From NCBI GenBank assembly GCA_027627225.1, contig CM051038.1, forward strand, positions 43,135,848-43,199,847: 64,000 nucleotides of DNA, given 5' to 3'. The stretch is from Congeria kusceri (Eukaryota > Mollusca > Bivalvia > Myida > Dreissenidae). A program made the position numbers and the translations under genes. The notes beneath the pieces were generated by a model. The model saw only the letters and a list, made by a program, of their open reading frames with translations. It searched no databases and was not told the origin of the DNA. Positions 13,854-60,415 of this stretch are shown piece by piece. How positions within the stretch are numbered: position 1 is the first letter of the stretch; each line of letters opens with the position of its first letter.

Positions 13854-13919
13854 TGAGGCGTGTCGTGGGAAACACTTTACGCACATGCTTTAAGCCCGAT
13901 TTTCCTAAGACACGCCTCA
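13854..13919. mobile_element. MITE copy 1 (66 bp, ends only)
   Basis: TGAGGCGTGTCGTGGGAAA and its complement GACACGCCTCA enclose only the CTTTACGCACATG stem; the central hairpin is absent. It lies 70 bp after the donor of the signal-peptide exon. Confidence 0.85.
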
Positions 13920-14248
13920 TTTTTTTAATGCCAGAGTTTTTGTATTAATGGGTTTACGGGAACGCCGCTCATAGACTTTGAAAATCCAAATAATAATAAA
14001 ATTTGAAATTTGGGTTTAATATTTATATTTTCCGCCTCATTTACCCTTGAAAGTGTTAAATTGTTAAATTGGTGTTCTGTAACTTGTCCGATATCGTACG
14101 ATTGCTAACTTTACATACCAGCAGATATATTGCGTAAGTTTATAATTTATTCAGCTTTGTAAAACATTAATTTTAAAACTAAAGTATTTATTCAACATTA
14201 AAAATATTAATTTAATGTGTCCTCTTCTTTAAACAAATTTGTACACAG

Positions 14249-14390
14249 ATCTTGCAAATATGGGAAACAGTGACTACCAGTCGCGAAAGCGATGTGGGGA
14301 AGCATTACTACAGCCTATATTGGGGGTGTAGTGTTGAATGCCAAACGGGATGAACTGAATGTTTGCGCAATTCTGAGAAGTGATGCATAC
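14249..14390 (+). pseudogene. Possible decayed Cys-rich exon
   Basis: An acceptor (TGTACACAG) is followed by a phase-1 frame with YQSRKRCG. After a one-base shift the next frame reads HYYSLYWGCSVECQTG then a stop. The Cys-rich character fits the gene, but the frame is broken and no clear donor is present. Confidence 0.3.
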
Positions 14391-14667
14391 GAAATAACTT
14401 TACCGTATAAATATAAAAAAATAACTAAAGTAACTAAAATAATGGATATTGTTGGAGTTGAACATTTTAAAAATAAATAACTTCAGGAATGCAAGAAAAA
14501 GTCAAAACGAAGAGCACTAACAAAACAAGTGTGTACACCACATAACTTAATATTTTGTTCAGTCATAGCAGAATCCTGAACATAGAAAAATATATCATGT
14601 TTTTATTAATTTGTGAAGTTATTATTAAGACTTGAAAAAATTATTGATTTTATCATTTTATATTTTA
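14391..14667. other. Intronic, nothing recognised
   Basis: AT-rich sequence between the first exons and the foldback repeat; no feature supported. Confidence 0.4.
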
Positions 14668-15440
14668 GCTCACCTTAGCACAGGGTGCTAATGTAGAGCT
14701 TTTGTGATCGCCGTTTGTCCGTCGTAAGTCGGCGGTCATCCGTCGTTCGTCGTTACTCGTTAAGCTTTAACCTTGTTAACACTGTATAGACCACATCTAT
14801 TTGCCAATCTTCATGAAACTTTTCCAGAACATTTGTTCCAATGATACCTCGGACGAGCTGAAACTGATTCATGTGGTGTTAAAAACTAGGTAAATAGCTA
14901 AATTGAAAAAAAAAGCTTGTGAACACTCTAGGAGCTAAATTTAATGCCCAATTAGTACGAAACTTGCTGATAATATTTTTTCAAAATGGTTCCGCTCCAT
15001 TGAAAATTATTGCCACTAGGGGGCGGGGCAGTTTTCCTTATATGAGTATATTGAAAACTTAAAAATAAATATTTTCTGTAACCACTGGCTGGATTTCTAA
15101 ATAATTTCATAGAAATCGTTCTTGGCTGACCATCTACCTAATTACTTCAATTTTAAAGCGTTTTGATTCGATATAATATGGTCGCCAGAGGTGGGGGCGA
15201 GGCAGTTTTTTTAATATGGCTATATAGAAAACTTTGAAAACCTTCTTGTCGGAAACCGCTTGCTGGATTTCAAATTAATTTCACATAAATGGTTTTTGAT
15301 TGACACTCTAACAAATTGCTTCAAATTATTTTCATTCGTTAAAAAAAATTCCGCCAGGGGGGCGGGAAAGATTTCCATATATGGCTATAAAGAAAACCTA
15401 TAACATGACAAATTTAGGGCAATTATGTCCATGTCAGTAA
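14668..15440. repeat. Bivalve foldback repeat with ~174-bp subunits
   Basis: It begins AGCTCACCTTAGCACAGGGT, the end motif also found at 56573. It then contains units marked by CTGGATTTC (15089, 15263; spacing 174), GGGGGCG and ATATGGCTATATAGAAAA. A related piece is at 15998-16300. No coding potential. Confidence 0.75.
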
Positions 15441-15997
15441 ACGACCAGTGCTCAGAACTGTTCGTGTTGTGTACAGAGCACAGCGACGGCTGCTTTATCA
15501 ACCATACATTAACAATTGCTCTTGTTAAAATGCTACGCAGGGTTAATGCTTGATCTGGTTTTAAAGAGTGATAGCTCGTAACTTAGTCTTAAATTTCGAT
15601 TTCGTTTAAGGCTTAACACTATGAGACTAAACCCTTATAAAATATTATGCATAAGCTTCCTACTTAATTTGTCTTGTTTTTGTAACCAAGTCAAATTTAT
15701 ATTATGTAGGTAATGCTAATATATAGCAGGATACATTGTGTTGTTATTATGAGATGTTTGCTATAACTTGCATTGTTATATTTTAAACTGCTTACCTGGA
15801 AATGTGATATTCTTTTGAACACATTCGTTGTATATGATAAAACATCTTAGATTTATTTTTCTTTATTGGAATGTACGTAGTGTGAACTCTTATTGTGATC
15901 ACACAAATTGCATTATTTATATTTGCATGCTGTATTAATTTGTTAATTTACTGTGTACATATGTTCAACTCTTCAAATATGGAGGAAATAAAGGAAT

Positions 15998-16300
15998 CAA
16001 TCAATCAAACTCTACTAAATTCCTTCAAATCATTTGTATTCGTAAAAAAAAAAGGCAACCAGGGGACGGGGATGCTTTCCTTTTATGGCTATATAGAAAC
16101 CTTTAAAAATCTTCTGGTCAGAAACCGCATGCTGGATTTCGAACTAATTTCACAGAAATGGTACTTGAGTAAAACTCTACTTAATTCCGCCTTTTGTACA
16201 TCCTGCGTGCCTCGCCACTAGGGCAAATTAAAGAAAAAGCTTGTAAACACTCTAGATGCCACATTTGTTGCCCAATCAACTTGAAACTTGCTTAGCGACC
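15998..16300. repeat. Second piece of the same subunit repeat
   Basis: CTCTACTAAATTCCTTCAAA, TATGGCTATATAGAAACC and CTGGATTTC (16132) match the 14668-15440 repeat. About 550 bp of unrelated AT-rich sequence separates the two blocks. Confidence 0.7.
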
Positions 16301-16745
16301 TAGGGCCTTACGGCTTACTTGTATTATTTTCCCTATGCTTGTTTTTTTCTCATTAAAAAATATCCACGCTTCCATACGCTCATTTTTTAAAAATCGCTCG
16401 TAAACTAATTACCCAAAAAAATTCTGACCTAAATGAAATTTGTTTTAATTAATATGTGCCATTTTGTAACGCTGTTCAAAACAATTTTAAAACAATAGCT
16501 TTATCAATTAACGTATTTACAAAATCAAAGAAAAACGTCTTTAAATAGCTATCGACAAAGGCACTATTAAGATAGAGAATACGCTGTAATATAGAACTTC
16601 CTGTGGTTGTTCTATAAGACTGTAAATATAATGAAATCACATTTTGCTTTTAATCCACACGGAAGAGTTTAATTGTTTATTACACATAAGGGCCTTCAAT
16701 AACGTAACGATACAAACACCGTCATTGCGAGCACGTCTGTTTCAG
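16301..16745. other. Intronic, nothing recognised
   Basis: No feature beyond the acceptor GTCTGTTTCAG ending at 16745. Confidence 0.4.
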
Positions 16746-16973
16746 GGATCGTGTACATGGTCTGCTACGTGGACAACGAGAACCGTATCCTGCTGCCGTT
16801 GATAGAAAAAAATGACCCGCATTTTTTTCAGTTCTATTTTGAGTGTTTCTGTGGCAGCAACTTCCTCTGGGAACCAGAGAAGCGCCCGGACTCCGAATGT
16901 TGGACGGAATGCTCCGGAAATACGACCCTCAAATGTGGCGGAGTCTGGCAACTGTCGGTATACAGCAACTGGG
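16746..16973 (+). CDS. Exon: WSC domain, shortened
   Basis: This 228-nt exon (phase 1 in, phase 1 out) reads YMVCYVDNENRILLPL, FECFCGSNF, ECWTECSGN, LKCGGVWQLSVYS, the cysteine pattern of a WSC carbohydrate-binding domain. The usual middle part with two cysteines (before FECFCG) is missing. The bases at the join, CATTTTTTTCAG before TTCTATTTTGAG, look exactly like a splice acceptor, so two formerly separate exons may have been fused by deletion of an intron together with the end of the first exon. Confidence 0.75.
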
Positions 16974-17452
16974 GTACTGTCATTACATCTTTATTGAACT
17001 AGTATTACATTTGACTCTTGAATAAATTTAAAACGTTTTTCTGAAATTACGTGGGTCCTTCTACTGACGGTTATATCCATTTTTAATCTTTCTTACAGAA
17101 ATATGATTTTGATGATGCATACTCCATAATTATAACTTAATAATAATTAACTTGATATGTTTTGGACAAGGCCAGTCCTCAAGATTATCGAACCAAAACT
17201 GATATAAAATATACTCATTATTTTGGTTACAGTTTTACATCAACAACAATGATTAGCTTACACGGAGCGTGTGTCATTTAATCTGCTCGGCGGAGTCTTT
17301 CAGTCATTACAACAAGATATAAGAGTCTGTTGCAGTGGTCAACACTTTATAATAAATCGTATTTAATGTAGTTTTAAATAGCCTGTGTTTGAAGATAACT
17401 TCTCTATAATCCCAAAAATATGGAACTTTCTCACCACCACCCCCCCCCCAAG
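16974..17452. other. Intron, nothing recognised
   Basis: It ends in a run of C (17441-17449) before an AAG acceptor at 17450-17452. No gene or repeat recognised. Confidence 0.4.
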
Positions 17453-17556
17453 GTTGTGACGGATCCCCGTGTAAGAACAATGCCACGTGCACAGGGGACA
17501 GGGAGGCTACTCGTGCAAATGCGCGGCGGGCTGGACTGAAACTAACTGTGATATCA
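17453..17556 (+). pseudogene. EGF exon 1, one-base frameshift
   Basis: CDGSPCKNNATC begins an EGF domain. After about 17500 the remainder (GGYSCKCAAGWTETNCD) is in the next frame. The exon is 104 nt instead of a multiple of three, consistent with one lost base. The donor ATCA|GTAAGT is intact. Confidence 0.75.
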
Positions 17557-17586
17557 GTAAGTATCAGTAGATGGCAAATAATGATA

Positions 17587-17711
17587 TGAGGCGTGTCGTG
17601 TGAAATCCGGGCTTAATGCTGTGCGTAAAGTGTTGTCGCGGATTAGCCTGTGTGGTCGGGACGGTACTTTACGCAAATGCATTAAGCCCGGGTTTCCCAC
17701 GACACGCCTCA
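17587..17711. mobile_element. MITE copy 2 (125 bp, one hairpin)
   Basis: TGAGGCGTGTCGTG end, GCTTAATGC...GCGTAAAGTG stem, one GATTAGCCTGTG hairpin, then the complementary end GACACGCCTCA. It starts 30 bp after the EGF1 donor. Confidence 0.9.
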
Positions 17712-17802
17712 TATGTAGACGAAGAATAAGATAACACACGTCTACCATCAACATTATTATCATCATAATCACCATCCACAACAAAATTATCACTAATAAT
17801 AA

Positions 17803-18016
17803 AATGGGTGGGTGGGATTGGGTGGATGGGTGGATGGGTGGGTGGGTGGGTGGGTGGGTGGGTGGGTGAGTGGGTGGGTGGGTTAGTTTTGGGTGGGTGG
17901 GTGGATGGGTGGATGGGTGGATGGATGGATGGATGGATGGATGGATGGATGGATGGATGGATGGATGGATGGACGGACGGACGGACGGACGGACGGACGG
18001 ACGGACGGATGGATGG
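17803..18016. repeat. Tetranucleotide microsatellite GGGT/GGAT/GGAC
   Basis: Runs of GGGT, then GGAT, then GGAC. Long open frames on both strands (rich in His-Pro-Ser or Gly-Trp-Met) are by-products. Confidence 0.97.
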
Positions 18017-18028
18017 ATTATTATTAGC

Positions 18029-18285
18029 CACATGAAATGGACACATCCCCGTACATTTGTTTATTATAATCCACATAAAATGAACACATCCCCGTTCATT
18101 TGTTTATTATAAGCCACATGAAATGGACACATCCCCGTACATTTGTTTATTATAAGCCACATGAAATGGACACATCCCCGTACATTTATTAGTTATAAGT
18201 AACATGAAATAGACACATCCCCACACATGTGTTTAATATATATAGCCACAAGAAATGGACACATCCCCGCACGTATATTGCTGTT
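18029..18285. repeat. 43-bp minisatellite, six copies
   Basis: The unit begins CCACATGAAATGGACACATC and ends TTTATTATAAG. Copies start near 18029, 18072, 18115, 18158, 18201 and 18245, the last two more diverged. It directly follows the tetranucleotide run. Confidence 0.9.
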
Positions 18286-18416
18286 GCATTCATGTATAAA
18301 GAGTGTGTCACAGAGACAATGGTCCTCTACCAATAGATTGAAAAGGGCTCAAACTTAATTATATTAAAAGGGTATTTACGAAATGTATTGTATTATTGAA
18401 TACAATTCTTATCCAG

Positions 18417-18527
18417 ATATCAATGAGTGCCAGGGAGTCTCGTGCAACCACGGTTCATGCATCGACGGTATCAATTCCTATACGCGTAATTGTGAGGCGG
18501 GATGGCAGGGACAAGCCTGCAATGTCG
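18417..18527 (+). CDS. EGF exon 2 with Cys replaced
   Basis: 111 nt, phase 1-1, reading DINECQGVSCNHGSC...YTRNCEAGWQGQACNVG. The cysteine expected between Thr and Asn is Arg (CGT for TGT), which removes one disulphide. Splice sites ATCCAG| and GTCG|GTAATG are good. DINEC fits a calcium-binding EGF. Confidence 0.85.
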
Positions 18528-18623
18528 GTAATGTTTTAACGCAGTAAGGATTATTTTTATTCGGTTCCTTAATTTCTAATTATTTATCAACTAACTACGT
18601 CTGTTAAGTCTTTTCCGAAACTT

Positions 18624-18745
18624 GGTATTATATAATATCACACCCTATAGAGGGTTATACAACGTATTGTCAACCGAGAATGGTAATGTCAACCGAGGCG
18701 TAAGCCGAGGCCCTCTTTGGGGTGTGATATTTATTGTATTATACC
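18624..18745. repeat. Short hairpin repeat (~122 bp)
   Basis: GGTATTATATAATATCACAC at the left pairs imperfectly with GGGTGTGATATTTATTGTAT-TATACC at the right. It is a MITE-like inverted repeat; part of the same motif recurs near 19660. Confidence 0.6.
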
Positions 18746-18951
18746 GAACAATAAAACAAGGAAACTTTGGCCTGATTACTTAATTTATAGATCTACTTTT
18801 TAAATGCCCATTAAAATAAACTAATAACATAAAAGTGTTAAAGCTAATTTACCACGGATTATTTCCATTATTTAAGATGTGTATAACATTTATGGTTACT
18901 TTACAATACAATAGTTAAATAATACTGCAAGAAAAGCCTTCTGTACTTTGT

Positions 18952-20413
18952 ACCGGCATGACCGGTGAGTGTGTACAGTGCAGTTATATTTTGATGTGTC
19001 ATGCTTGATCGATAGGAAGTTTCTACAGCGCGTTAGTTTAAATCAGTAATATTAATGGCAAAATACGTGCGAAAATTATTGTTGGATACAAAACGAAATA
19101 TTATAGTTGATGGGAAGTGTTTAATGGATATTCAGAACACTTGAACGCGATAAATGTGTACAGTAGAGTAGTGCAGTAACGACACAAACCAGTTTTCACT
19201 CGACTGACATAGGATTGTGCTGTGTCGTGTTAGTTTGTTTTTAACATGTTTAAGCACTCGCGTAACACATAATTAAAGGAACCATGGATTGACGATATCT
19301 AACTTATTTTGGACGGCAATACGGATAATCAGATACAGGTTTGGAGATAAAATACGATTTAAAAAATAAGTTCTGACCAGTCATGGCGATTTCAAAACAA
19401 ATCGCGTTTCTGGTTCTGGTTAGCACGGTTCGCATGAAATAAATATGGCACAACTTTGTGGATACTTGAAAATGAATTACGAAAGCGTGTTGCTGGATAT
19501 TTATTGTAAAAGCAGTGGATTGACGTTAGCATTACTAAAGCCTTAAAAGGTAAACGTTGTTTTGTTTTGAGAAACGGTTGTTCTATTTTTGGCTCCACGC
19601 GAGGGTGACAGTATAATGTCGCATGTGACATTATATAAATAACACATGGCTGAGAGGGTGATATAAAATATTATTACACCTCACGTGACCACTCTGTGTA
19701 TTTGTCCATAGACCAAAAGTTATATCCCAGGGTAATATTTTTTCATATCACCCTCGCGTGGTGCTAAAAATCGAACAGCGATTTTTTTTTCAAAACAAAA
19801 CAAACGTGAACGACTATGCAAATATTACCTCCAAAGTGCTGACGTCGATCCATGGCATTTTACAATAAATATCCAGCTACAAGCATTTGCAATTCCAGTT
19901 TGTATCCACAAAGCTTATATATTTCAATTGTTCACGTGAACCGTGCTAACCAGATATGCGATGAGTTTTCGAAATCGCCATGACTGGTCAGAACGTATCT
20001 TTTAATTCGTATTTCGTCCCCAAACCTGTATCCGACTATCAATATTGTCGTCCAAAATAATTTTAGACATCACCGATTCATGGTTTCTTTAATTCTGTGT
20101 TTAAACACGACCCAACACAACCTATGTAATAATATCAGTCCATTGAAAACTGGTTTGTGTCGTCATTGCACTTTTTGGGAACAGATTACTCACCGTGCCA
20201 CACATTTATCCGTTACTTGATCGGAATATCTATTAAACACCTTCCATCAACTGCATATTATTCCTTTTTGAATAAACGATAACGTTCGCCCGTATTTCGT
20301 CTTGTTTATAACCAATTTAATCTAACGCGCTATAGAAACTTCCTGTCGATCACGTCATCTTTAAAATTGACACGTTTAAATATAGCTGTACACACTCAAT
20401 GGTCATGCCGGTT
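18952..20413. repeat. 1.46-kb imperfect palindrome
   Basis: The left arm 18952-19609 and right arm 19748-20413 are reverse complements over most of their length: ACCGGCATGACC with GGTCATGCCGGT, GGAAGTTTCTACAGCGCGTT with AACGCGCTATAGAAACTTCC, GGATATTTATTGTAAAA with TTTTACAATAAATATCC, CCACGCGAGGGTGA with TCACCCTCGCGTGG. The spacer is about 138 bp. No protein frame; a foldback element is likely. Confidence 0.8.
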
Positions 20414-20955
20414 AAAGGTTTAGGTCATGTCTGCGAATCATTGGAAAGTATGGTAGGCTGATTCTGCAATATTTTAACTAGATAACTATTGTATTGTGAA
20501 ATGGTACTTTCTCCGCAACTACTGGACAGAATACAATGAAACTGATGATTCCGTATCAAAATGATGTGTGCAGAGTACAGGATGTTTCCTTTAAGTGATT
20601 TTCCTTGGAGTTATTTGCAATTCTTGTCTGGACTGTTTCTCAGAAACTACTAGCCAATATTCAATAAAACTTTATAAGAAGCTTCATTACCAAGAGGAGG
20701 TGTTCACTGTACCAAAATGCTCCTCTTCAATGGTTTTTTCTTACAGTTATGGGACTTTGATGATTGCTGAAATTAATATAAAGAGCACAATTGTCTGGAC
20801 TCTTCACATCTGATTGGATTCCCATTACTTGGCAAAGCGCATTGGGGAGCATCCATCAGTTCACTGATATCCTTGTCAAACCTGTCACAACAGTACGGTC
20901 TTCATCTTAGCCAGTACTCAGGTGAGCGGTTTGTGCCATCATGACCCTCTTGTTT
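20414..20955. repeat. Dispersed molluscan-type repeat fragment
   Basis: It contains TGTCTGGACTGTTTCTCAGA and ends CAGTACTCAGGTGAGCGGTT...TGACCCTCTTGTTTT, the end motif shared with 58700-58760. No coding signal. Confidence 0.55.
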
Positions 20956-20965
20956 TATTTTACAG

Positions 20966-21079
20966 ACGATGACGAATGTGCCTCAAACCCATGTAAAAAC
21001 GGAGCCGTCTGCAACAACCTACAGAACAAGTACACGTGCAACTGTGCGACCGGGTGGCATGGAACCAACTGTGATAAAT
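20966..21079 (+). CDS. EGF exon 3, weak donor
   Basis: 114 nt in phase 1 reading [18 protein letters not shown]...CNCATGWHGTNCDK. All six cysteines are present. The expected donor is degraded: the only GT at the correct place is in AAAT|GTCGGC, so splicing may fail here. Confidence 0.8.
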
Positions 21080-22249
21080 GTCGGCCGAGACACTAACTAA
21101 CCAAAAATACCGTGCCTATAACCTTAAAGACTATTTTGATTAGGACGAAGAAAATACGACACCACTATAGAAGTGTTTCAAAAGGGACACAAAGTCATTG
21201 GACTGACCAAATGCTTATACTACCTCTTTAGTTGTAGTGTCGCATAATATTAATGCATATTACATCTTAACAAAATACATGCTTTATCAATCGGTGAAAT
21301 ACTTGTCGACAGAAATAAAATCCCGTATTATGCTACTTGCTGTTTTTCCGATCCCTTATATTAATTACCATACCAGCTGGGCTACTTTTTAATGACGTCA
21401 TCATAGAGTTATGTAAAGAAATATCATCTATACCTGGCGCTAAACTAAAGCGTCACTTTAAAGTCGGACACCAAATTGAATGTGAGCTACAATGTCTCCG
21501 AAATTCTCGACCGACAACTGAGTTGTCAACCAACCTTTACGACCGACAACTGAGTTGTCAACCAACCTTTACGGCAGCAGCATCTGACTGGTGTACTTCT
21601 CACCTGCAACACGACCACTACATACGCCGCCATTTACTATCAATAACTACTCTGCCAAATCCCCGACACAGAAAAACAAAAGAGACTTCGCATAACAGAG
21701 AATGACAGCAATTTTTTAAGTTTGTGCTAAATCCGGAAAACTAACAGAGTTCATACAAATACCATGTTTTTGTTTCACATCGTTTCTGGTTTGTTTGAAT
21801 GATGACGTCTTAAATATTATTCTTACGCGTCATACGAAATCAAAATACGGCGTATCATTTGAGTCTGTATTGTAGTTTTAACAAATAAAATAAGGTAAAT
21901 GAACATTTGAAGTTTATCGTCGTATACATAAATAATAAAAGCCTCTCGTGTGATACGTTATCACACAAGCCACTCGACTAATACATACTCTTGGAACAAT
22001 TGACTAGTGTAATATTCCGTATTGATCTATACTATTAATTGTGTATGCATTGAATTTCATTTCATAGCGATCAAAGCCGTTTTATAGTAAAGGTTTTAAA
22101 ACACAAATAGGCCATAGTCTTACGAAATCCTTAAAATGGAACTTGATTGTCGCATCCGAGTAATGCAGTACAATTAGCGTTGATTGTAAGTCAGTTAACA
22201 ACATATATATGTAATGATCACAAATACAGCCCCAATTTGCCTGTTGTAG
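21080..22249. other. Intron; small tandem duplication at 21508-21572
   Basis: CGACCGACAACTGAGTTGTC with following bases occurs twice in tandem (33-bp unit). The 122-residue frame spanning it (21337-21705) has no domain. Otherwise nothing recognised. Confidence 0.5.
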
Positions 22250-22363
22250 ACATCAACGAGTGTGCCAGCAACCCGTGCAAGAATGGAGCAGTCTGCAACA
22301 ATCTTCTCAACAAGTACACGTGCGTCTGTGCGGCCGGATGGCAGGGAACAAACTGTCACCAAG
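22250..22363 (+). CDS. EGF exon 4
   Basis: 114 nt, phase 1-1: [20 protein letters not shown]...[15 protein letters not shown]. It is a calcium-binding type EGF with all cysteines. Acceptor TTGTAG|, donor CAAG|GTTGAC. Nearly identical to EGF exon 5. Confidence 0.9.
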
Positions 22364-22933
22364 GTTGACCATAACGCAATAAAGAAGCAGTAACGTTCTT
22401 GTTGTAGTTGTTCTTCATTCTTTAAAAAAATTAATAAAGCATCTCATCAAGGTATCATCAACATATTTGGTTGAATACGAAGGGCAGTCAAAACGTTCAT
22501 GAACAATCTCTTTTTTTTCGCATAATTGTAGACCTATGTAGATGAAAATACAGCTATAAAATAGTTAATGTGTGTTGAATGAAACGGAATACGCATTTGG
22601 TTAGTTTAATAAATAAATATCTTCAGACTACTTCATTTGAATATATCGTGAATAGTGCGGGGCACTGCAGATAATCTTTTCTAAAAAATTCGATACTATC
22701 TAAAGAATAATAGTCCTCGTTTCTCTGTCACAAGATGCTCATGGTACATTTATTACCATTTTTGCATTAGAATGTAAGTTACTAGTAGCAAAGACGGGCT
22801 CACTATTTTTCGGATCCCCGGTGGACGTGTGGCTAGGGGTTTTGTTCAGAAATAGGGAGCCTTCAAATACGTTCAGTATTTAAAACATTGAAACCTAGAA
22901 ATAACTTTTCGCAAATATCATTGTTAAATTCAG
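22364..22933. other. Intron, nothing recognised
   Basis: No repeat or coding feature recognised. Confidence 0.4.
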
Positions 22934-23047
22934 ACATCGACGAATGTGCCAGCAACCCGTGCAAGAACGGAGCCGTCTGCAACAATCTTCTGAACAAGTA
23001 CACGTGCACCTGTGCGGCCGGGTGGCAGGGAATCAACTGCGACGTGG
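22934..23047 (+). CDS. EGF exon 5
   Basis: 114 nt, phase 1-1: [20 protein letters not shown]...CTCAAGWQGINCDVG. Acceptor ATTCAG|, donor GTGG|GTACGT. Its close match to exons 3 and 4 suggests recent tandem exon duplication. Confidence 0.92.
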
Positions 23048-23265
23048 GTACGTTGCGAAATGAATTAATTTACATGAATACGGCGCTGAGTATTGCACTA
23101 TGTCAACGAAAAATTGTTTTCCTATTGCACTATAAATTATATTATTTGATAGAAAAGCGATTTACTTAGAAATGTTTATTAAAAAAGATAATATAGTACT
23201 GTATTATGTACTACATAATACGATATTTCATAGAAACTAATTAGAAAAAATGTCTGAAAAATATA

Positions 23266-23356
23266 AACCCCCAAGCGGTTATCGAACTCACGACTTAGGA
23301 GCCATTCGAAGAAATGACACTAGACAGCGCTTTAACCAACTGCGCAATCATGCTTG
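23266..23356 (-). repeat. tRNA-derived SINE
   Basis: On the minus strand TTGCGCAGTTGGTTAAAGCG resembles a pol III box A and GTGAGTTCGATAACC a box B, about 50 bp apart. The arms do not fold into a clean tRNA, so this is a SINE head or tRNA relic. Confidence 0.6.
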
Positions 23357-23744
23357 GTAAGGAGTCGTGTGTAAACTATGATTTTACATAATGCTCACAA
23401 TTATGACGTCAAAATGTAAACAGGAAAAGGGCTAAACAAACACAACTCATATCATATTATAAATTGATTTTTATCTCAGAATGCGTACACTCTTGTCCCA
23501 TTACATATACTCTGTTTTAACCGTTATTATTTTCCAGTATTTTTATCTAAATTTCTTTTTTTTTTCTCATAAATTGCCCGCTTTAGGCCCTTTTCGATGA
23601 TATAGTCCCTTTAAACTTTAACAATGTTTTTGTTGAACCGAAAAAGACAGTTTTATACAAAATAGTTAGAAGACTTGCTGCGTGACACTTTATTGAATAT
23701 TTTTTATATTGTATTACCTGTCATGTTCGAACAAATATGTGTAG
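23357..23744. other. Intron, nothing further recognised
   Basis: AT-rich; no other feature. Confidence 0.4.
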
Positions 23745-23773
23745 ACATTGACGAGTGTGCTAGAAACCCTTGT
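23745..23773 (+). pseudogene. EGF exon 6, truncated after ten codons
   Basis: TGTGTAG| acceptor followed by DIDECARNPC in phase 1, then abrupt loss of similarity (TTTTTATACCTC...) and a stop. The remaining ~85 bases of the exon are gone. Confidence 0.8.
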
Positions 23774-25104
23774 TTTTATACCTCATTTTTCTGTTTTCCT
23801 TCTTTGTTCATATAAAAACAGAGCAGTCAACAATTGGAAACATAATATGACAATATCACCGGCTATGACGTCGTGGCAATAGACAATGAATTGATCGGAG
23901 TCAATAGGCACAAATGGGACACTAAATGGGACAGTGAATTAATTACTCCATGGCACAATCACTCATCGTTTGTATCGCTGCGTCGGTATAATATAAAATG
24001 AGGCTTCGCCTTGGACAACATTATTTTCTCAGGTTGACAAAATGCACTCCAATGCATTATTTATATAGTGTGTCTTGTCAGTATGTCCAGCCGTGCGTCT
24101 GTCCGTTTCCTAAATATTTTACAATTGTACGAAACCAAATGTATTGCATAGAAGTTAGCTTCTGTTAAACGATTTGTATAGCGCTCAACCCTTTGAACTG
24201 CGGTACATGTTGTTCGTCATTGGATGGCGCAGGAGATATGTAAAAGGTGAAACAAGAAATGTCTTTAAAAAAGACAATCGGCGTAGAAAATAATATTGAA
24301 ATGTCCTTTTTTTGCCCTAAATATAATACAAGAGGACCAAGCTGTGACTTCACGGACCCCATATTTTTCGTTCCCTACTAAGGAGACTTCTCGGACCCCA
24401 GATTTTTCGGTCCTTACTTGGGAGACTTCTCGGACACTAGATTTTTCGGACACTATAAGAAAACGTATCGGCCCCAAATATTAATTTGAAATAAACTCTA
24501 ATTATTAATATCTGTACCGTGAATAAACCGATCATATACCGCCCCATGTTTTCACCAGTAATACATGAATAAGCTAAATACTAGTAATTTACGTAAACAT
24601 AATTGATACATGAATTTGTCAGGCAATTTTAACAATTTAACATTGAGCCGTTAGTTTATAAATTCCTCATTTATTGCAATTCTCGGGTTTAGGATTCTCC
24701 AGACGCTAATTGATGCATGTGTATTATGCACCTATCAATGTTTCCCCAGGGGGGGGGGGCGGCATGCATATACGGGACTTTAGACTGAAAGCGATTCCCG
24801 ACAGGCGGGAATTTGACATTTCAAATGATTATGGGTTCCGTGGTAATATACTTTGATCGGATTTTGGATCCTGGTAATATAAGCCCCCGGGCCATTTGGT
24901 AGACATATAGCATCTCCCACTCAGGGGATTTAGACAAATATGCTTAGATCTAGAGTGGGGAATTAGACCCCCAAAAATAAAATATGTCAAATTCCCCTGG
25001 GTCAGCACGCCGCTCCCCCCTGGGGGGAAATATGGATATGTGCATTAACACAGATTTACCCCGCGTTATTTTTAGAATGATTCTCCTGCTGGAGATATAC
25101 TCGC
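23774..25104. other. Intron; 3x ~40-bp repeat at 24337-24460
   Basis: GGAGACTTCTCGGACCCCAG-ATTTTTCGG repeats three times with small changes. A G run (24750-24759) and C-rich patches occur near 24.75-25.02 kb. No gene seen. Confidence 0.5.
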
Positions 25105-32405: not shown

Positions 32406-32438
<33 letters not shown>

Positions 32439-51800: not shown

Positions 51801-54800
51801 CACTCATGCTCATCTTCAACATCGTCATCGTCGTCATCGTCTTGGAGCTCATTATCGTCTTATATGTAACTCTGTTGTTTTTTTCTTACCATTCTGACGT
51901 TATTTAGTATCCTATCCATGGCTATTTCTGCGTCCGTAGTAGCATTGGCTCCGAAAGCGCTGGAGTTTGCTCCTACAAGGCTGTTTGTCTGACCGCCTCC
52001 TGAAAGAAACATACTAAACTTATCAGTAAAGATATTGTTAACACTTTACAACAAACAGGGGATGCAACACAATAATTGCGAGTATAACCTATTTAGTAAG
52101 ACCGCTGAGCCTTGTAGTTGCACAGTGTATGCAGTGGGGTTATGCCCCATGTACCAAACCAAATCCAGTTATAAAATATTGCTACTGAGATTTAGAATGG
52201 CCGTAATTTAAGTTGAAAGAGCTAATTTGTTTTACGACAGAGGGTAAATTGGATTAAGTAATGTGCTGTTGGGGAAAGTGGATCATCCGAAAAACAAAGT
52301 ACCTTCAAAGGTCATACTCACTTGAGTTTGGTCAGAAATAGTGAACCAAACACTGCGCTGAAGGAATAGCCACATGACACTTACTACTACCACCACTGCG
52401 GTACTCGATAACAATACAGCCCCACACTGACCTGGCGAGGCGTTCCTGCTGCTACAGAAGGAGTCATCGGCGCTGGCCACCAGCAGCAGTGGTACCACGT
52501 ACTCCGAGGCGGCCCCCTGGAACAGCGGCAGTCTGCAGAGAGGGCATAGCACATCATACGTATAATCGGTCATGTAGTTAACCAAACTCGTCGGAGCGGT
52601 TACTTCCCCTAGCGGTTATCAGTAACCGCCATTACAAGTAAAATCCTACCTGATCAGGAAGGAATTCATTTTTGTAAGTTTAACTTATTAAAAGCAACTG
52701 ATTGCGATTTGCTACATAAATGGACTAACTATATATCATTTAGGGTCAATAATGAAACAAAAGAATTGAAAAATCTAGTCAAAAGCATAAGTAATAACTT
52801 GAAGATTTGAATCGATCATCATCACGTGGTTTTGGTATGACGGCAATGAATTGATTTGAGCTATGCTCGGAACCATTCAACTCTCTGCGCGGTGGTTTGT
52901 AGTTAACAAGACAAACCGAGATTTTTACACATTACCGTATCCCAAAGAGGTTCATGCACATGATTACACATTACCGTATCCCAAAGAGGTTCATGCAGAC
53001 GGTGGTCAGGCCGCTCATGAAAAGAGTGGAGCTGAGAAGCCTCGCCTTGAACACGTCATTGGTGGAGGCACAGACCGCCTCCGCCACCAGGAGCGACACG
53101 ATCAGCTGACTGGACAGCGACAGAAGGGCTTGCTGCAGAGGAAAGCATAAGAGACTTGTCGTGGGAAAATCGCGCTTAACGCATGTGCGTAAAGTGTCGT
53201 CCCGTATTAGTCTGTACAGTCCGCACATGCTAATCCAGAACGACAATTTCCGCCTACAGTGAATTTATGTTTAGAAGAGACTTCATTGAAACAGAAAATA
53301 CCATAAAAGCGGAATGTGCCGTCCCGGAATCCGGGACGACAATTTACGCACATGCATTTAGCCTGATGTTCCCACGACACGACTCATATTATACCGTGAA
53401 CAAACATTGAACAATACTGTGTAACGACAATGGCCCAGCATCTCTATTTCTCTGTGTCAGTATGTACATGTAAGCCTGACGGGGATGTCAGCTGGACATA
53501 TACACAGCAAATTATTATAATAAGCGTCTAATAATATGAAAATCATGTAGTTAGTGTAATAGTATAGTTATACTATTATTTAAAACACAATTGCATATAA
53601 ATACAATAAGAATCACAGGTCTTTGGTACTAAAATCGATAATCCGTTGTACCTGATCTCCCCGCGATTTAGCTTCCGGTACTTAAAATGGAATGACCCGG
53701 GCGAGCTTATTGTGTTACATGACCTGCGGCTATATAATCGGTAGCGCGCTATGTATAACGAAGAACCGTTCTTGCTACCGAAGAAGACAGTTGATTAAAT
53801 ATAAATTTAAAGTAATTAATTGCGCTGGTGAGAGCTGATTCTTGATCTTCTGCTCGCGACTACCTCGTACCAAACTTGACATTAGAAACACTCGCTATTC
53901 CTTGTCCGTGGAGTATTATTGCACAAGCATTGCGTTTAATGCGATCTACAAAGCGACAAGGATAGTGAGATCTGCTGTACCACGCTTGGTTCCAAACCTT
54001 GTTTAGACTATAAGATACTGTGCTAGCCCATCACATATTAGGATATCAGTGTTCCATTCGCCCGTCTTGTACATAAGTGATTCCATCCACTGATTTTGTT
54101 TGCCCATCCAATTATTTTAAGAGATCACATCCTTTAATTTATGTTGATTGGGTATCTTTAATAATCATCGTGTATAATCATTTGTCTAATCATCAGACAG
54201 GTAGCCCCAAGGAAAATTCATATAGAGTTGTTTAGACTCATGTTAATACTTTGCGTGCATTAGACCCCCTGCATGTTACAACTGTAATGATATATTCTAA
54301 TAGCGTGTTGCAAACATATCTGATTACCTTTTGATGCTATGGCATACAAGAATCTGGAAAAGTGACGATAACATTTTGTACGATAAATACATTATATAAC
54401 CTTTTATTTAATGCTAAGTAGTAAAATATAGAAAAGTATCAGTGAGATATATCCCTAACTCACAGTGAGGGACTACTTTTTTAATATTCATTTGATTTGG
54501 ACAATATTTTATTAAATGTATTGTCACCATTTATCATACAAAATTACCAAAAAGAAAAGTAGTAAAGATTAATAACAGCAAATGTTAAGAATACCTCTCC
54601 GATATATTGAACTGTATGTATTTCCTCTTTTTTTCTCTTGGATTTTCCTCAGTCGTATTGAGCCAAGCAGACTAGTGCAGACAATGTCTTGCGGGTACAA
54701 GTTTTACCCACAAGGCATTGGAGCTGGTCACCTTAGTCCAAACTTAATTTTATAATAAAACTTATTTATTTTATCCTGTGCACGTTATTAATTCCCGCAT

Positions 54801-57800
54801 ACTATACTTGCAGTTGCACTTATTGTTTACTGTTGCTGTGAACAGTAGTTTCCCTTTGTTTACATAATCGCTGTATTGCCGGTTCTCCAAAATCCAACAA
54901 GAATCCAACGTTGCCTTAAGTAATAACTTGTGTTCATTAAGCAAGCACATATTTATATATTCGTTTCTGTGTATTTCTTACGTATTTAAGTATTCAATGT
55001 GCTGGTGTAAGAAGTGTTCAGCGTTCCATTATCCGCCATCTTGTTTTCTTCAAATTCTCGACTTTTAACCCAATTGTGTTGTTAAATTCGAATCACTAAT
55101 ATAGAAAACTCTTTATACGTATAAGTAACCCATTTCAGAACACTCTTTCACTTTTAACGCGCGTCTACGAGTTTAATCATCTTGAATAGCTTTCGAAAAC
55201 ACATAGTGCGTTTGAATGTCGTGACTGCGTTAACTATTGTTTACATCATAACACGTATGTTCACGCTATTTTAAGAAAATGTGAATTTCTGAGAACTGAA
55301 CGCACTTTCACTTTCAATACGTACTTTTATTATAAATGTATTTAAACCTAGCTTTGATTGTTGACTGTTTGATTTAAAAGCTGGACATTATTGAACGACT
55401 ACGTGTATCCAATAGCATGTATTTTAACTTAAATAAATTTAGAAACCCGGATTCTGCGTTGCCTATGAATATACTGTACAGCATAGTAGACCCTGAAAAC
55501 ATCGTGTTAAAAATCCTTTAAAAATAATTCAAATGTAAAGAATACTCAATAGCTCGTGAAAATATTAACTGTCTCCCTTTCCGGTGATTATATCACGCGT
55601 TATCACACCGGATACAAACAAATATCCTCTATATATCCAAGTTTAACTGCATGTTTGTTTTAAGCAAAACTTATAAATATAGATCGAACTCTTTACAATA
55701 TAAATGCATATGTTATTGTATCAGTGTCTTTGGAACCGGTCTCAGATTCGTTCTTAATAAAAAAGCAAGAACATTTTAGTGTAGTCTTCTTCTGTATTAT
55801 TAGAATACTAACTAACATATTTTACATACAATAATAAATTTACATAAACTAAACATGTGTGCCTATCTAAATTGTGTGCAAGTGTTGTACTGTGTACCGC
55901 AATCTTCTATACATGCCGGATAAATGAATGGCTTTAAATTTATGTCCTTATTAAATTACTGCGCGCCGTAAAATATTTAAATGTGAGCGCATATCTTACA
56001 TAAAGTTTAACAACATGCAAGCACACGTACGACGAAATCTTGTCGCTTTGTTTAGTGTGCACACATGTGACACGTGATGTATACAAACAATACATTTACA
56101 AATTACTAGCTGCCACATTCAGGTTTTACGGTCGTTTAAAATTTACGTTTACATCTACGTTAACAAACGTAACATCGACGTATGCTGTTTTGTTTCGTGC
56201 TAATGTAATATGTCATAAAATAACAGCTTTTGCCACTCGGTATGCGTTCGATAATTGTACTGTTGCTGCACTTAATTATCATTACCTCTGATAACACCAG
56301 AACTGGTATGTATAAAGAATCTTATGGTCGAAAATTAAGAAAAATCTTTGCATTTTCTGAACTTGTATAATTAGATTTCCTGACAAAGAATTGCATTGTT
56401 TTCAAGGATCTGTCTCAGATGTTATAATATGATTTCACGTGTGTACATATGAAGTATTTATCATGCACATAATCCAAAGTATAGTGTTTGAAACACACAA
56501 TCTAATTTTTTTTTATCTATTTTCAACTGTAAGTTAGAATAGCTTAAGAATGTGTGTGTAGTACATTGTTAGCTTACCTGAGCACAAAGTGCTCATGGTG
56601 AGCTTTTGTGATCGCCCGTTGTCCATCGTCCGTGCGTGCGTATGTGCGTACGTGCGTCCGACCGTCGTCAACATTTCATTCAAACAATATCTTCTCCTAA
56701 ACCACTTGGCAGATTTTCACCAAACTTCACAGGAATTATCATTGGATGACCCTCTTTCAAGGTTGTTCAAATCATTACGGTCCGCTGCATATGTAGGTCA
56801 CCAGAGCTAAAAATAGATTTAAAAAGTGTAATTTAAAAAAAAAACTCTTATCTGAAACCGCAGGACCCAGAGGTTTCATATTTGGTATGTAACATCCTAT
56901 AGTGGTCCTCTACAAAGATTGTTCAAATTATGCCCCTGGGGTCAAAAGGGGCCACGCCCCGGGGTCACACGGTTTCTATAAAATATATAGCAAAATTACT
57001 TTAAAAATCTTCTCCTCTGAAACCACAAGGCCCAGAGGTTTCATATTTGGTATATAACATCCTATAGTGGTCCTCTACAAAGATTGTTCAAATTATGCCC
57101 CCGGGGTCAGAAAAGGACACATGGTTTATATAAAATATATAGCAAAATGACTTAAAAAATCTTCACCTCTGAAACCACAAGGCCCAGAGGTTTCATATTT
57201 GGTATGTAACATCCTAAAGTGGTCTTCTACAAAGATTGTTCAAATTATGCCCCTGTGGTCCAAACTGGCCACGCCCCGGGGGTCACATGGTTTATATAAA
57301 CTTAAATAGCAAAATGTCTTCAAAAATCTTCTACTCTGAAACCGCAAGGCCCAGAGGTTTCATATTTGGTATGTAACATCCTATAGTGGTCCTCTACAAC
57401 TTTTGTTCAATTTATGCCCCTGGGGTCAAAGCTGGCTACGCCCCGGAGGTCGCATTATTTATATAGACTTAAATAGCAAAATGACTTTAAAAATCTTCTC
57501 GGAAACCGCAAGACCCAGAGATTTCTTATTTGGTACGTAACATCGTATAATGGTCCTCTATAAAAAAAAAAATCAAATTATGCCCCATTGGTCAAAACTG
57601 GCCACGCCCTGGGGGTCACATGGTTTTATATAAACTTAAATAGCAAAATGTCTTTAAAAGTCTTCTCCTCTGAAACCGCAAGGCCCAGAGGTTTCGTATT
57701 TGGTATGTAACATCCTATAGTGGTCCTCTACAAAGATTGTTCAAATTATGTCCGATGGGTAAAAACTGACCACAACCCAGGCGTCACATGTTTTATATAG

Positions 57801-60415
57801 ACTTAAATAGCAAAATTACTTCAAAATTATTCTCCTCTGAAACCGCAAGGCCTAGAGGTTTCATAGTTGGTATTTAACATCCTATAGTGGTCCTCTACAA
57901 ATATTGTTCAAATGATGCCCCCTGGGGTCAAAACTGGCCACGCCCCGGGGGTCATATGATTTATATAGACTTAAATAGCAAAATGACTTTAAAAATCTTC
58001 TCCTCAGAAACAGCAAGGCCCAGAGGTTTCTTATTTGGTACGTAACAGCGTATAGTGGTCCTCTACAAATATTGTTCAAATTATGCCCCTGGCGTCAAAA
58101 CTGGTCACGCCCCGGGGGTCACATGGTTTATATAAACTAAAATAGCAATATGTCTTTAAAAGTCTTCTATAAAACCGCAAGACCCAAAGGTTTTTTATTT
58201 GGTATGTAACAACCTATAGTGGTCCTCTACAAAAATTGTTCAAATTAAGCCCCATTGGTCAAAACTGACCACACCCCAGGGATCACATGGTTTATGTAGA
58301 CTTAAATAGCAAAATGACTTTAAAATTATTCTCCTCTGAAACCGCAAGTCCTTGAGGTTTCATATTTGGTATGTAATATTGTATAGTGGTCCTCTAGAAA
58401 TATTGTTAAAATTATGCCCCTGAAGTCAAAACTGGTCACGCCCGGGGGGTCACATGGTTTATATAGACTTAAATAACAAAATGAATTTAACAATCTTCTC
58501 CTCTGAATCTCTCCAAAGATTGTTCAAATTATGCCCCTGGGGTCAAATCTGGCCACACCCTGAGAGGTCACGTGGTTTATATAGACTTAAATAGCAAAAT
58601 GACTTTAAAAATCTTTACCTGAAACCGCAAGGCCCAGAGGTTTGTTCAAGATTGTTTAACTTATGACCCTGGAATAAAAATAAGCCACGCCTTGGGGATG
58701 CAAATTCCAATTGGGTTACAAGAACTCAGGTGAGCATCCTAGGGCCCTCAGGGCCCTCTTGTTATCGATTGCACCGGGATTCTCTCCCATACGGCCATGA
58801 TTGCCCCAAGAAGACTTGGTAGTTGGTTACGGGGGATAATGCGAGATACGGGAGATATCCGGGTATTTTAATGCCAAGTGTGCAGCACCTAATACACTGC
58901 AATTTGGTTTAACTTTCCATGCTAAAGATGAGTTAGTAGATGAGGGTGTGGCGGTGGCCCGAACCTGCGATCCCGGGATTGTGAAGCCAGTGCGTTACCA
59001 CTAGACCACGGATCCGCCACCTTAGCATAAGAGTCCTTATAGATACGGGCTCAGCACCAGCTAACACAATTATTGAATGCACATACAGTACCCCAGTCTC
59101 AACTGCATAAGATTTTAATTCAAGAAAATAAAGCATGTTGTTCACTAAGTGTTATATTATCAAATTTGTGCTGCTGATAATAAAACGTGCTTTCTTAATT
59201 AACTAAGTGTGTTAATATAACTACGTTTTGAATTAGAGCCAAAAGTTACTGTGTTAAGTAAAAAAAACTTACATCTAAAGGGTATACATTTTATTTGCGA
59301 TAAAATATACACTAATATATTGCTCCATACACAACAGCACTGTGTTTAGACAGACACACGAGACCTCAATATATTCAATAGAAGAGGTCTTTGCAACGAA
59401 CATTTCATCTGCACTTGCCTAAGTAACATTAACATAACAATAACATCCGAAACATCTAACACCGATATGTAAATTATTTGAATTTAATCTAGTCTTGCGA
59501 AAAACATCAATCTTAATTATAATAATATATTTACAAAATCATTCAACCATACATTGACTTAGATGTGCTTACGATCAAAAAATATATCGGCCGCTGACAT
59601 ACATAAATAATCAATTGTAATGATAATAATACAGTTTTAAACTCATTTAACCATGCATTGACTTATTATATGTGTTTACGGCCATCAATTATATCTGCCA
59701 CTGATACAAAAAAAACACAACCAAACAAAACGCGTGTCTTGGGAAAACCGGGCTTAATGCACGTGCGTAAAGTGTCGTCCCGGAATAGTCTGTGCAGTCC
59801 GCACTGGCTAATCCGGGACGACAGTTTCCGCTTTTATGGTATTTTCTGTTTCAATGAAGTCTCTTCTAAACATTAATCCACTATAGGCGGAAAATGTCTT
59901 CCTGGATTAGCCTGTGCAGTCCGCACAGGTTGATCCGGGACGAAACTTTCCGCTTTTATGGTGTTTTCTGTTTCAAGGAGACCTCTTCTAAATGTAAATC
60001 CACTGTAGGCGGAAAATGTCTTCCTGGATAAGCCTGAGCGGAGTGCACAGGCTGATCCGGGACGACACTTTACGCACATGCATTCAGCCCCTTTTCCCCC
60101 GGCACGCCTCAGTTATATGTTACTTGCCCGAGTACCCACCTGTAGAGCGCACACGACCGTCACGTGCAGCGGGGGCGAGTCGTTGACGCCGTATATCAGG
60201 TACCTCTCCTTGAGGCTTTCCACAGTGACATCTAGCAGTACTTCCGGCTTTTCGTCTGCATCCGCCTTTCTCGTGTGCTCATTGTCGTCTGCGTTTGGTT
60301 TCAGTTCAATGTCAATGCCTTGTACAGTGTTATCCGTACAGCAGACGTCTGCCAGGTCTATTTCTCGTTCACTACCGCGTTCATTATTTATAACTACGCC
60401 GTTGACGTTTGCCAT
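45643..60415 (-). CDS. SLC23 / nucleobase-ascorbate transporter family protein, 12 exons
   Basis: Exons (plus coordinates): 60140-60415, 52975-53132, 52432-52532, 51890-51999, 51227-51408, 50692-50812, 50324-50480, 49616-49869, 48407-48571, 47436-47544, 46718-46813, 45643-45854. They sum to 1,941 nt, 646 residues plus stop, with every junction phase matching. Family landmarks: RLPLFQGAASEYVVP, GFSGLIGQLLRFVGPLTIVP, SIGDYYACAR with APPKHAVNRGI, GNIGAIGVTK, FVLDNTVPGTPEERG. SLC23/NAT proteins are polytopic plasma-membrane carriers, Na-coupled for ascorbate in vertebrate SVCTs or for nucleobases in others. Three substrate-site positions differ (see findings), so the substrate is uncertain. One donor is GC instead of GT. 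Five palindromic MITEs sit next to its exons. Confidence 0.93.
46118..46388. repeat. 33-bp minisatellite, eight copies
   Basis: The unit ACAAGGAAAAGATCTCCTAT-CAAAGTGCTGCTC repeats eight times almost without change, inside the intron between SLC23 exons 11 and 12. Because 33 is a multiple of three, several frames on both strands stay open; this is not evidence of coding. Confidence 0.97.
46718..46813 (-). CDS. SLC23 exon 11
   Basis: 96 nt, phase 1-1: GHVVFDKVMSMLLGNPNLVG-TIIAFVLDNTVPG, the last membrane segments. Acceptor TTTCAG|, donor CCAG|GTGAGT. Confidence 0.92.
46814..47435. other. SLC23 intron 10, nothing recognised
   Basis: No repeat recognised. Confidence 0.4.
47436..47544 (-). CDS. 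SLC23 exon 10
   Basis: 109 nt, phase 0 to 1: VTNMSSPRNIAILGLSVFIG-LCVPTWAQKAKNPVQTG, matching the family MNSSRN...GFS.FFGL.VP stretch. Confidence 0.92.
47603..47863. mobile_element. MITE copy 5 (261 bp, two hairpins)
   Basis: TGAGGCGTGTCGTGGGCAAA end, two CCTGTGC hairpins around the TTAGAAGAGACTTC linker, GACACGCCTCA end. It lies 58 bp upstream (mRNA sense) of exon 10. Confidence 0.93.
47864..48406. other. SLC23 intron 9 remainder, nothing recognised
   Basis: AT-rich with no supported feature. Confidence 0.4.
48407..48571 (-). CDS. SLC23 exon 9
   Basis: 165 nt, phase 0-0: VASRHVFICTGIIYILFGIF..., ISIPYPVLGGAIVIMFGIFF, two membrane segments; matches the family SIP.P.LGG motif. Confidence 0.93.
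48589..48851. mobile_element. MITE copy 6 (263 bp, two hairpins)
   Basis: TGAGGCCTGTCGTGGGAAAC to GACACGCCTCA. Only 17 bp separate it from the acceptor end of exon 9, so the branch point must lie in or at the edge of the MITE. Confidence 0.93.
49085..49460. repeat. Dispersed palindromic repeat, copy 2
   Basis: Matches 28600-28990: TTCGATTTATCGTTGTTTAT, GGAATTAAACCACG, GCATCAGAACGACA, GTAGTTTAACGACA. Confidence 0.7.
49616..49869 (-). CDS. SLC23 exon 8, signature region
   Basis: 254 nt, phase 1 to 0, residues 369-453. Carries LDSIGDYYACARV, PAPPKHAVNRGIMIEGLS and GGNIGAIGVTK. In the family the residue before SIGDYYACAR is Glu and the first residue of the NAT signature is Gln, Glu or Pro; here they are Asp394 and Gly444. 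Donor AAG|GTGCGC. Confidence 0.93.
50019..50295. mobile_element. MITE copy 7 (277 bp, C-run in right end)
   Basis: CGAGGAGTGTCGTGGGAAAC start and GCATTAAGCCAGATTTA end region, interrupted by a C-rich tract (50261-50287) before ACGCCTCA. It ends 28 bp from exon 7 on its donor side. Confidence 0.88.
50324..50480 (-). CDS. SLC23 exon 7, GC donor
   Basis: 157 nt, phase 0 to 1: ILISIILNWLLCGALTYAGV..., RTDARIQVIYDNPWFTFPYP. The exon end CCAG is followed by GCACGT, so a GC-AG intron is required for the phase to match exon 8. Confidence 0.9.
50692..50812 (-). CDS. SLC23 exon 6
   Basis: 121 nt, phase 2 to 0: TIVVAMVLFLYLAKYNMPVP-VWTPSLGFRIIRYPLHQVFA. Acceptor TTTGCAG|, donor GCG|GTAAGT. Confidence 0.92.
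50813..51226. other. SLC23 intron 5, nothing recognised
   Basis: No repeat recognised. Confidence 0.4.
51227..51408 (-). CDS. SLC23 exon 5
   Basis: 182 nt, phase 0 to 2: IQGSLLVAGFIHALLGFSGL..., RFVGPLTIVPTLILIFVFIV. Donor TCTC|GTATGT. Confidence 0.93.
51516..51850. repeat. Long CAT/CTC/CTT microsatellite
   Basis: Pyrimidine-rich triplets (ATC, CTC, TTC) fill most of SLC23 intron 4. Long frames (poly-His/Pro or poly-Ile/Leu) are artefacts of composition. Confidence 0.95.
51890..51999 (-). CDS. SLC23 exon 4, extracellular loop
   Basis: 110 nt, phase 1 to 0: GGGQTNSLVGANSSAFGANA-TTDAEIAMDRILNNVRM. Two N-glycosylation sequons (NSS, NAT). Acceptor TTTCAG|, donor ATG|GTAAGA. Confidence 0.9.
52000..52431. 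other. SLC23 intron 3, nothing recognised
   Basis: No repeat recognised. Confidence 0.4.
52432..52532 (-). CDS. SLC23 exon 3
   Basis: 101 nt, phase 2 to 1: LPLFQGAASEYVVPLLLVAS-ADDSFCSSRNASPG. PLFQG is a family motif. Donor CCAG|GTCAGT. Confidence 0.93.
52925..52997. repeat. 39-bp tandem duplication over a splice donor
   Basis: TTACACATTACCGTATCCCA-AAGAGGTTCATGCA occurs at 52925-52958 and 52964-52997. The second copy contains the end of SLC23 exon 2 and its donor; the first copy repeats both inside the intron. Confidence 0.93.
52975..53132 (-). CDS. SLC23 exon 2
   Basis: 158 nt, phase 0 to 2: QALLSLSSQLIVSLLVAEAV-CASTNDVFKARLLSS..., FMSGLTTVCMNLFGIR. Acceptor CTCTGCAG|, donor ATACG|GTAATG. 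Confidence 0.92.
53150..53386. mobile_element. MITE copy 8 (237 bp)
   Basis: AGAGACTTGTCGTGGGAAAA start, linker TTTAGAAGAGACTTCATTGA, CGACACGACTCA end; the second hairpin is shortened. Only 17 bp from the acceptor end of exon 2. Confidence 0.9.
53387..56572. other. SLC23 intron 1, first part, nothing recognised
   Basis: AT-rich; the frame at 56040-56291 has no domain. No repeat was identified. Confidence 0.4.
56573..58760. repeat. Foldback-ended satellite, ~166-bp unit
   Basis: It opens AGCTTACCTGAGCACAAAGT-GCTCATGGTGAGCT, a hairpin end, and closes AACTCAGGTGAGC...GGCCCTCTTGTT. Inside, AGTGGTCCTC or variants occurs at 56901, 57066, 57219, 57385, 57549, 57719, 57886, 58054, 58218 and 58385, so most spacings are 164-170 (one is 153). 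Each unit has CCGCAAGGCCCAGAGGTTTC and CTGGCCACGCCCCGGGGGTC. Confidence 0.93.
58952..59022 (-). repeat. tRNA-like SINE head
   Basis: Minus strand GGCGGATCCGTGGTCTAGTG has a box A, GCAGGTTCGGGCC a box B, and GGCGG...CCGCC could pair as an acceptor arm, but the anticodon arm does not fold. A tRNA pseudogene or SINE is likely. Confidence 0.5.
59023..59729. other. SLC23 intron 1, nothing recognised
   Basis: AT-rich without a supported feature. Confidence 0.4.
59730..60111. mobile_element. MITE copy 9 (382 bp, three hairpins)
   Basis: ACGCGTGTCTTGGGAAAACC start and GGCACGCCTCA end. Three GCCTGTGCAGTCCGC-type hairpins alternate with two linkers (TTTTCTGTTTCAATGAAGTC and TTTTCTGTTTCAAGGAGACC). It ends 28 bp from exon 1 on its donor side. 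Confidence 0.92.
60140..60415 (-). CDS. SLC23 exon 1, N-terminus
   Basis: ATG in context ATTATGG opens MANVNGVVINNERGSEREID..., a ~75-residue hydrophilic tail, then LIYGVNDSPPLHVTVVCALQ, the start of TM1. The exon ends CTACAG|GTGGGT in phase 0, directly joined to QALLSLSS of exon 2. Confidence 0.9.

Follow-up and report, generated by a model that had tools for sequence, protein, structure and literature searches.

Crowding of a palindromic MITE at exon edges in a 64-kb window of Congeria kusceri: a probable local coincidence, with no more than a mild bias

RESULTS AND DISCUSSION

In a stretch of 64,000 nucleotides of the Congeria kusceri genome (contig CM051038.1, 43,135,848-43,199,847; hereafter the window), the copies of a palindromic MITE found inside two genes lie closer to splice sites than placement by chance predicts. 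Outside the window no clear deviation from random placement was found, and we attribute the pattern in the window most probably to local coincidence, or otherwise to no more than a mild bias.

Copies of the element and their host genes

The terminal repeat of the element, TGAGGCGTGTCGTGG, was matched 19 times in the window at three or fewer mismatches, against a mean of 0.47 in shuffled sequences, and these matches resolved into 10 MITE copies of 66 to 380 bp. A low-stringency blastn search of the window (E ≤ 0.01) added just a 22-bp scrap (25041-25062), which was left uncounted. The genes and copies are as follows.

Gene A, 13724..29350, + strand: signal-peptide-like, WSC-like, EGF, TSP1-like and LDL-receptor class A exons
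Gene B, 45650..60416, - strand: xanthine/uracil/ascorbate permease family, 10 coding exons recognised
MITE copy 1, 13854..13919: 66 bp, shortened; 70 bp past donor 13783/13784, gene A
MITE copy 2, 17587..17711: 125 bp; 30 bp past donor 17556/17557, gene A
MITE copy 3, 28101..28307: 207 bp; 15 bp past donor 28085/28086, gene A
MITE copy 4, 29451..29712: 262 bp; 100 bp past donor 29350/29351, gene A, downstream exon not found
MITE copy 5, 47603..47863: 261 bp; 58 bp before the acceptor of exon 47544-47436 (-), gene B
MITE copy 6, 48589..48851: 263 bp; 17 bp before the acceptor of exon 48571-48407 (-), gene B
MITE copy 7, 50019..50296: 278 bp; 27 bp past the apparent GC-type donor 50324/50323 (-), in a 454-bp intron, gene B
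MITE copy 8, 53150..53386: 237 bp; 17 bp before the acceptor of exon 53132-52975 (-), gene B
MITE copy 9, 59732..60111: 380 bp; 28 bp past donor 60140/60139 (-), gene B
MITE copy 10, 60954..61179: 226 bp; 538 bp upstream of the gene B start codon, not among the nine copies described earlier

Exon edges in the window were set by reading frame and splice consensus. An earlier note on this DNA had placed nine copies within 100 bp of a splice site in two genes on opposite strands, and both statements hold: the gaps are 15-100 bp, with one value off by 1 bp (27 instead of 28, copy 7), and copies 1-4 lie in gene A (+) and copies 5-9 in gene B (-). The donor side holds six of the nine. Copy 10 lies in a 5'UTR, in an undetected 5' intron or in intergenic DNA.

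Gene A begins with a signal-peptide-like exon ending at 13783 and its LDL-receptor class A exon ends at 29350. In it, the Pfam models EGF and Ldl_recept_a were matched above cut-off and WSC at 1.5e-5, below its cut-off; the putative signal peptide and two putative TSP1-like exons were named by eye. In gene B, PF00860 was matched at 1.6e-25 in a frame over exon 49869-49616 and at 6.7e-5, below cut-off, over exon 53132-52975. We take this gene to be SLC23-like, its name and remaining exons having been assigned by eye.

Several irregularities were seen in these genes. In the EGF exon 17453-17556, next to copy 2, the reading frame seems to shift by one base after a C-run, through either an assembly error or decay of the exon. 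In gene B, the intron with copy 7, which makes up most of it, starts with an apparent GC donor (50323-50324 on the - strand, CAG/GCACGT), and a tandem array with a 167-bp unit (56841-58500) occupies part of a 7-kb intron that carries a MITE at either end. Misplaced exons or an assembly error might have made the whole pattern, and the frameshift, the one GC-type donor and the near-identical duplicated stretches on contig C1 (see below) would fit such an origin. We nevertheless regard it as very improbable, given that the 19 exons that served to train the codon score (17453-17556, 18425-18526 and 27944-28085 not among them) have no in-frame stop and that Pfam matches were obtained in both genes.

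Structure, target duplication and abundance of the element

Terminal inverted repeats, with TGAGGCGTGTCGTGG at both ends at three or fewer mismatches, are present in 9 of the 10 copies; copy 9 has one end only, and its interior holds 2.5 repeats of a 122-bp period. Each of the ten copies folds into a hairpin that takes up most of the element (-28.3 to -229.1 kcal/mol), with the lowest regularity in copies 7 and 8. In the genome (1.549 Gb, 1071 contigs), the terminal repeat has at least 44,109 matches with one mismatch or fewer (21,970 + 22,139), genome-wide counts of repeats being lower bounds.

For the target duplication, both end motifs were found in 28 copies out of 85 blastn intervals. The flanking 2 bp are identical in 22 of these 28, compared with 8.4 expected by re-pairing, while identity over 3 bp occurs in 3 (1.4 expected). 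All 22 agreeing flanks are W-W (TT 9, TA 9, AA 3, AT 1) and mostly lie inside A-WW-T, with an A-rich left side and a T-rich right side, the right flank starting with T in 21 of the 28 copies. Having terminal repeats, a target duplication, short length and high copy number, the element qualifies as a palindromic MITE, one that duplicates a 2-bp WW target. In Stowaway-like MITEs, which derive from Tc1/mariner, the target duplication is TA only. Here, insertion at TA alone is ruled out by the flank types, with just 9 of 28 copies flanked by TA/TA against 9 by TT/TT, 3 by AA/AA and 1 by AT/AT, and a Tc1/mariner-derived (Stowaway-like) MITE was rejected on the same TA/TA count.

The element resembles MITEs in general in being short and palindromic, in its terminal inverted repeats and short target duplication, and in having end matches in the tens of thousands. 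It differs in that the 2-bp duplication is WW (TT, TA, AA or AT) instead of TA alone, and in the crowding of copies at exon edges, which is local to this window. Among the matches listed in a search of open-access titles and abstracts, no report of the element or of exon-edge crowding of MITEs in a mollusc was found, and the PDB, searched with a single frame from a sampled locus (L032), gave no match.

Placement of the copies within the window

As the null, each bounded copy was placed uniformly in its own intron, with the elements removed. Since copy 4 has no known downstream exon, the bounded test comprises eight copies (seven introns), and all eight lie within 100 bp of a splice site, compared with 2.23 expected (28%). 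The resulting probabilities are 3.8e-7 for the product, 2.7e-5 by Fisher and 1.3e-4 for the threshold-free KS test, with placement quantiles of 0.049, 0.082, 0.035, 0.194, 0.045, 0.311, 0.005 and 0.009. The threshold-free values are the fairer ones, because the 100-bp limit was picked after seeing the data (copy 4 lies at 100). Also, a large share of the signal comes from two copies in one 7-kb intron, without which the Fisher value is 0.003, and for copy 7 a position within 100 bp was unavoidable, as its 454-bp intron has just 176 bp of other sequence. The intron of copy 2 measures 0.87 kb if the coding-like EGF segment 18425-18526 is counted as an exon, as in the bounded test, and 3.4 kb if it is not. 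Finally, the pattern was spotted by eye in one 64-kb window out of ~24,000 in the genome, against which a KS value of 1.3e-4 is modest.

Short introns alone were rejected as the cause in the window, with 2.2 copies expected and 8 seen. Dispersed repeats other than the MITE point the same way: in the window's 20 bounded introns they are unskewed, with 1 of 8 closer than 100 bp to an exon against 1.01 expected. Part of this control is a second repeat family of ~320-350 bp, grouped by eye (window 28607-28928 and 49093-49441; L018:8296-8641, L019:7944-8288, L020:739-1090 and L012:6591-6925), whose copies in introns of the two window genes are 260 and 174 bp away from exons.

One way in which an element could come to lie next to exons is that it created the introns. 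According to PMC9860276, elements with terminal inverted repeats and target site duplications can be introners, and some introners are MITE-like and biased to nucleosome linkers. The element described here shares with those in that paper the occurrence of TIR/TSD elements in introns, but their ends meet the splice sites, whereas here the ends do not and the introns exceed the element in length. Among the bounded window copies (n = 8), none has a splice site at each of its ends, the gaps on the far side being 149-6753 bp; six of the seven introns keep at least 601 bp besides the elements, and the 454-bp intron of copy 7 keeps 176 bp. On this anatomy, with element ends that do not abut both splice sites, introner origin was rejected and we give it next to no chance, in agreement with the caution in the earlier note that such an origin lacked direct support.

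Placement at other loci

The sample from outside the window consisted of 33 loci (218 kb) around MITE ends, taken from the first 21 Mb of contig C1 and from 40 kb of sequence next to the window. Of 48 loci in all, 15 had been removed before counting as duplicate, overlapping or closely similar. Exons at these loci were identified by codon scoring, with 952 codons from the window's own exons as the training set. Near-identical stretches, up to several Mb apart and some inverted, recur on contig C1 (L014/L024, L015/L017, L016/L028, L034/L042, L035/L043, L036/L044, L037/L048, L038/L047, L039/L046 and L040/L041/L045), representing either segmental duplication or haplotypes that the assembly has retained.

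At the outside loci, 13 intronic copies are bounded, and of these 5 have an exon no more than 100 bp away, compared with 3.72 expected (P 0.29, KS 0.32, Fisher 0.44, median quantile 0.47). The 95% interval of this fraction is 14-68%, and therefore a twofold bias is allowed while a rule is excluded. The difference from the window is marked (8/8 versus 5/13, Fisher exact 0.006), and other bounded repeats at the outside loci gave 4 of 7 within 100 bp (2.02 expected, P 0.05). The interpretation given in the earlier note thus stands in part: the local non-randomness is supported (8/8 against 2.23 expected, KS 1.3e-4), and so is its caution on introners, but a habit of the whole family of hugging exon edges is not borne out by the outside copies.

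A looser test, in which an exon was needed only within 1.5 kb, gave an excess for the MITE (10 of 27, 3.9-4.0 expected, P 0.002). Other repeats at the same loci behave alike (6 of 13, 1.5 expected, two of the six touching an exon call), and because of this the excess is not specific to the MITE and the null is poor. Of 10 outside segments near a MITE, 5 were matched by Pfam at E ≤ 0.001, 3 of these above the Pfam cut-off. Copies close to exon-like segments were found at acetyl-CoA carboxylase (17 and 89 bp), anoctamin (29 bp), DEAD helicase (55 bp), CAP-Gly (91 bp) and macoilin (~20 bp), with distances measured to segment edges; the anoctamin segment falls below the exon-score threshold and is absent from the outside counts.

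Donor-like words next to the element genome-wide

The word AGGTRAGT occurs 20 times in the genome 10-40 bp before an exact MITE end (17 non-duplicate) and 4 times at 400-430 bp, the near excess having a binomial probability of 0.0008 (17 versus 4, 0.004, without duplicates). In the opposite orientation, the word occurs at 10-40 bp 20 times before a CpG-degenerate end, and 11 of these cases (10 non-duplicate) have the exact end. The contrast between orientations is weaker, with 20 versus 11 (P 0.07) or, for non-duplicate cases, 17 versus 10 (P 0.12), and the reversed word near the element is commoner than the forward word far from it (11 versus 4). When one upstream frame from 10 of the 17 non-duplicate near-donor copies was run against Pfam, a single match was obtained, a macoilin exon (E 5.7e-27).

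Of the 20 element ends in the window, 4 are found 10-40 bp past a donor. Extrapolated to the genome, this rate would give 70 exact-end hits if there are 7,000 ends and the word fits 5% of donors, or 240 with 12,000 ends and 10%, these numbers of ends and donor shares being assumptions. The bound is weaker than it appears, because only intragenic copies should count; with one third of the copies intragenic, 70 becomes ~23, near the 20 seen, and 240 becomes 80. It is thus unlikely that the window rate is general in the genome, although the bound is not tight, and the word counts suggest perhaps a mild enrichment on the donor side near exons.

A real, moderate enrichment at exon flanks would arise if the transposase has a preference, at exon borders, for DNA that is open or at a nucleosome edge and if hits in exons and splice sites are purged, leaving a pile-up 12-100 bp outside the exons. 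The skew of the eight bounded window copies, the 20 near against 4 far donor-like words and the copies found elsewhere 17-91 bp from exon segments with a Pfam match are all consistent with this. However, words in the wrong orientation are also frequent at the same distance (20 versus 11, P 0.07) and the placement of the bounded copies outside the window is compatible with chance, so we hold such an enrichment as possible but doubtful.

Hairpins, possible branch points and possible retention by selection

The 3' end of the element is CTCA, followed by T in most copies, and CTCA+T resembles the branch-point consensus. Copies 6 and 8, both 17 bp before an acceptor, have a CTCAT or CTTAT pentamer 16-18 bp before it, and judging from these motifs they may carry the branch point through the element terminus and the base that follows. 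Selection might in this way have retained hairpins near exons as aids to, or modulators of, splicing, with an insertion 17 bp before an acceptor supplying the branch point; the stability of the hairpins and the T that begins the right flank in 21 of 28 copies would suit this. With six of nine window copies on the donor side and the bounded outside copies placed as if at random, we find retention of this kind quite improbable.

A combination of the two ideas, to which we also assign a low probability, is that insertions accumulate 10-100 bp outside exons, where the transposase would favour exon-border DNA and CTCA+T termini would replace the branch point, making insertions near acceptors harmless. 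If true, this niche would be the reverse of the depleted zone in mammals. In the introns of human and mouse, as described in PMC3088655, DNA transposable elements taken together are underrepresented close to exons, within 50 bp in human and 100 bp in mouse. The mammalian underrepresentation zones were likewise defined there by comparing the distance from a transposable element to its nearest exon with random placement, but the MITEs of the window show the opposite of depletion, and those outside it no clear deviation. Crowding at exon edges, if general, would contradict the mammalian depletion and would provide a tractable system for studying how elements insert or are kept at exon borders, with an effect on splicing that could be tested.

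The preferred explanation

The reading that we favour, as the probable one, is an ordinary high-copy MITE in a local cluster recognised post hoc, possibly over a weak exon-flank bias. Such a short, palindromic and very abundant element is presumably moved by a cut-and-paste transposase, and it inserts into A-WW-T in AT-rich DNA with duplication of the central 2 bp, as the flanks show. Insertions in exons or breaking splice sites would be purged by selection, and because of this removal the copies surviving in gene-rich stretches would be intronic. As many introns are short, a good share of copies cannot but lie near an exon (in the window, random placement puts 28% within 100 bp). Other repeats and the tandem array in the long introns may postdate the MITEs; the MITEs would then have entered introns shorter than those seen today, which would make the null used here too strict. 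Neither short introns nor later growth alone should explain the window, since its other repeats are unskewed (1/8 versus 1.01). The rest of the excess would most likely be the local post-hoc cluster, possibly with a mild exon-flank bias.

This preferred reading is favoured by the outside copies (5/13 against 3.72 expected) and by the Pfam match in just 1 of 10 near-donor frames. Against it count the window product of 3.8e-7 and the difference of 8/8 from 5/13 (Fisher exact 0.006), as well as the 20 near versus 4 far donor-like words and the close exon-like segments of acetyl-CoA carboxylase, anoctamin, DEAD helicase, CAP-Gly and macoilin. Nine copies in two genes are, in this respect, a warning against reading a rule.

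Besides the MITE, the window contains long frames at 8004-11426 and 34550-41842 that by eye are LINE reverse transcriptase-like. The second of these regions also holds a large inverted pair, with arms at 35628-36745 and 39474-40591 that are 75% complementary.
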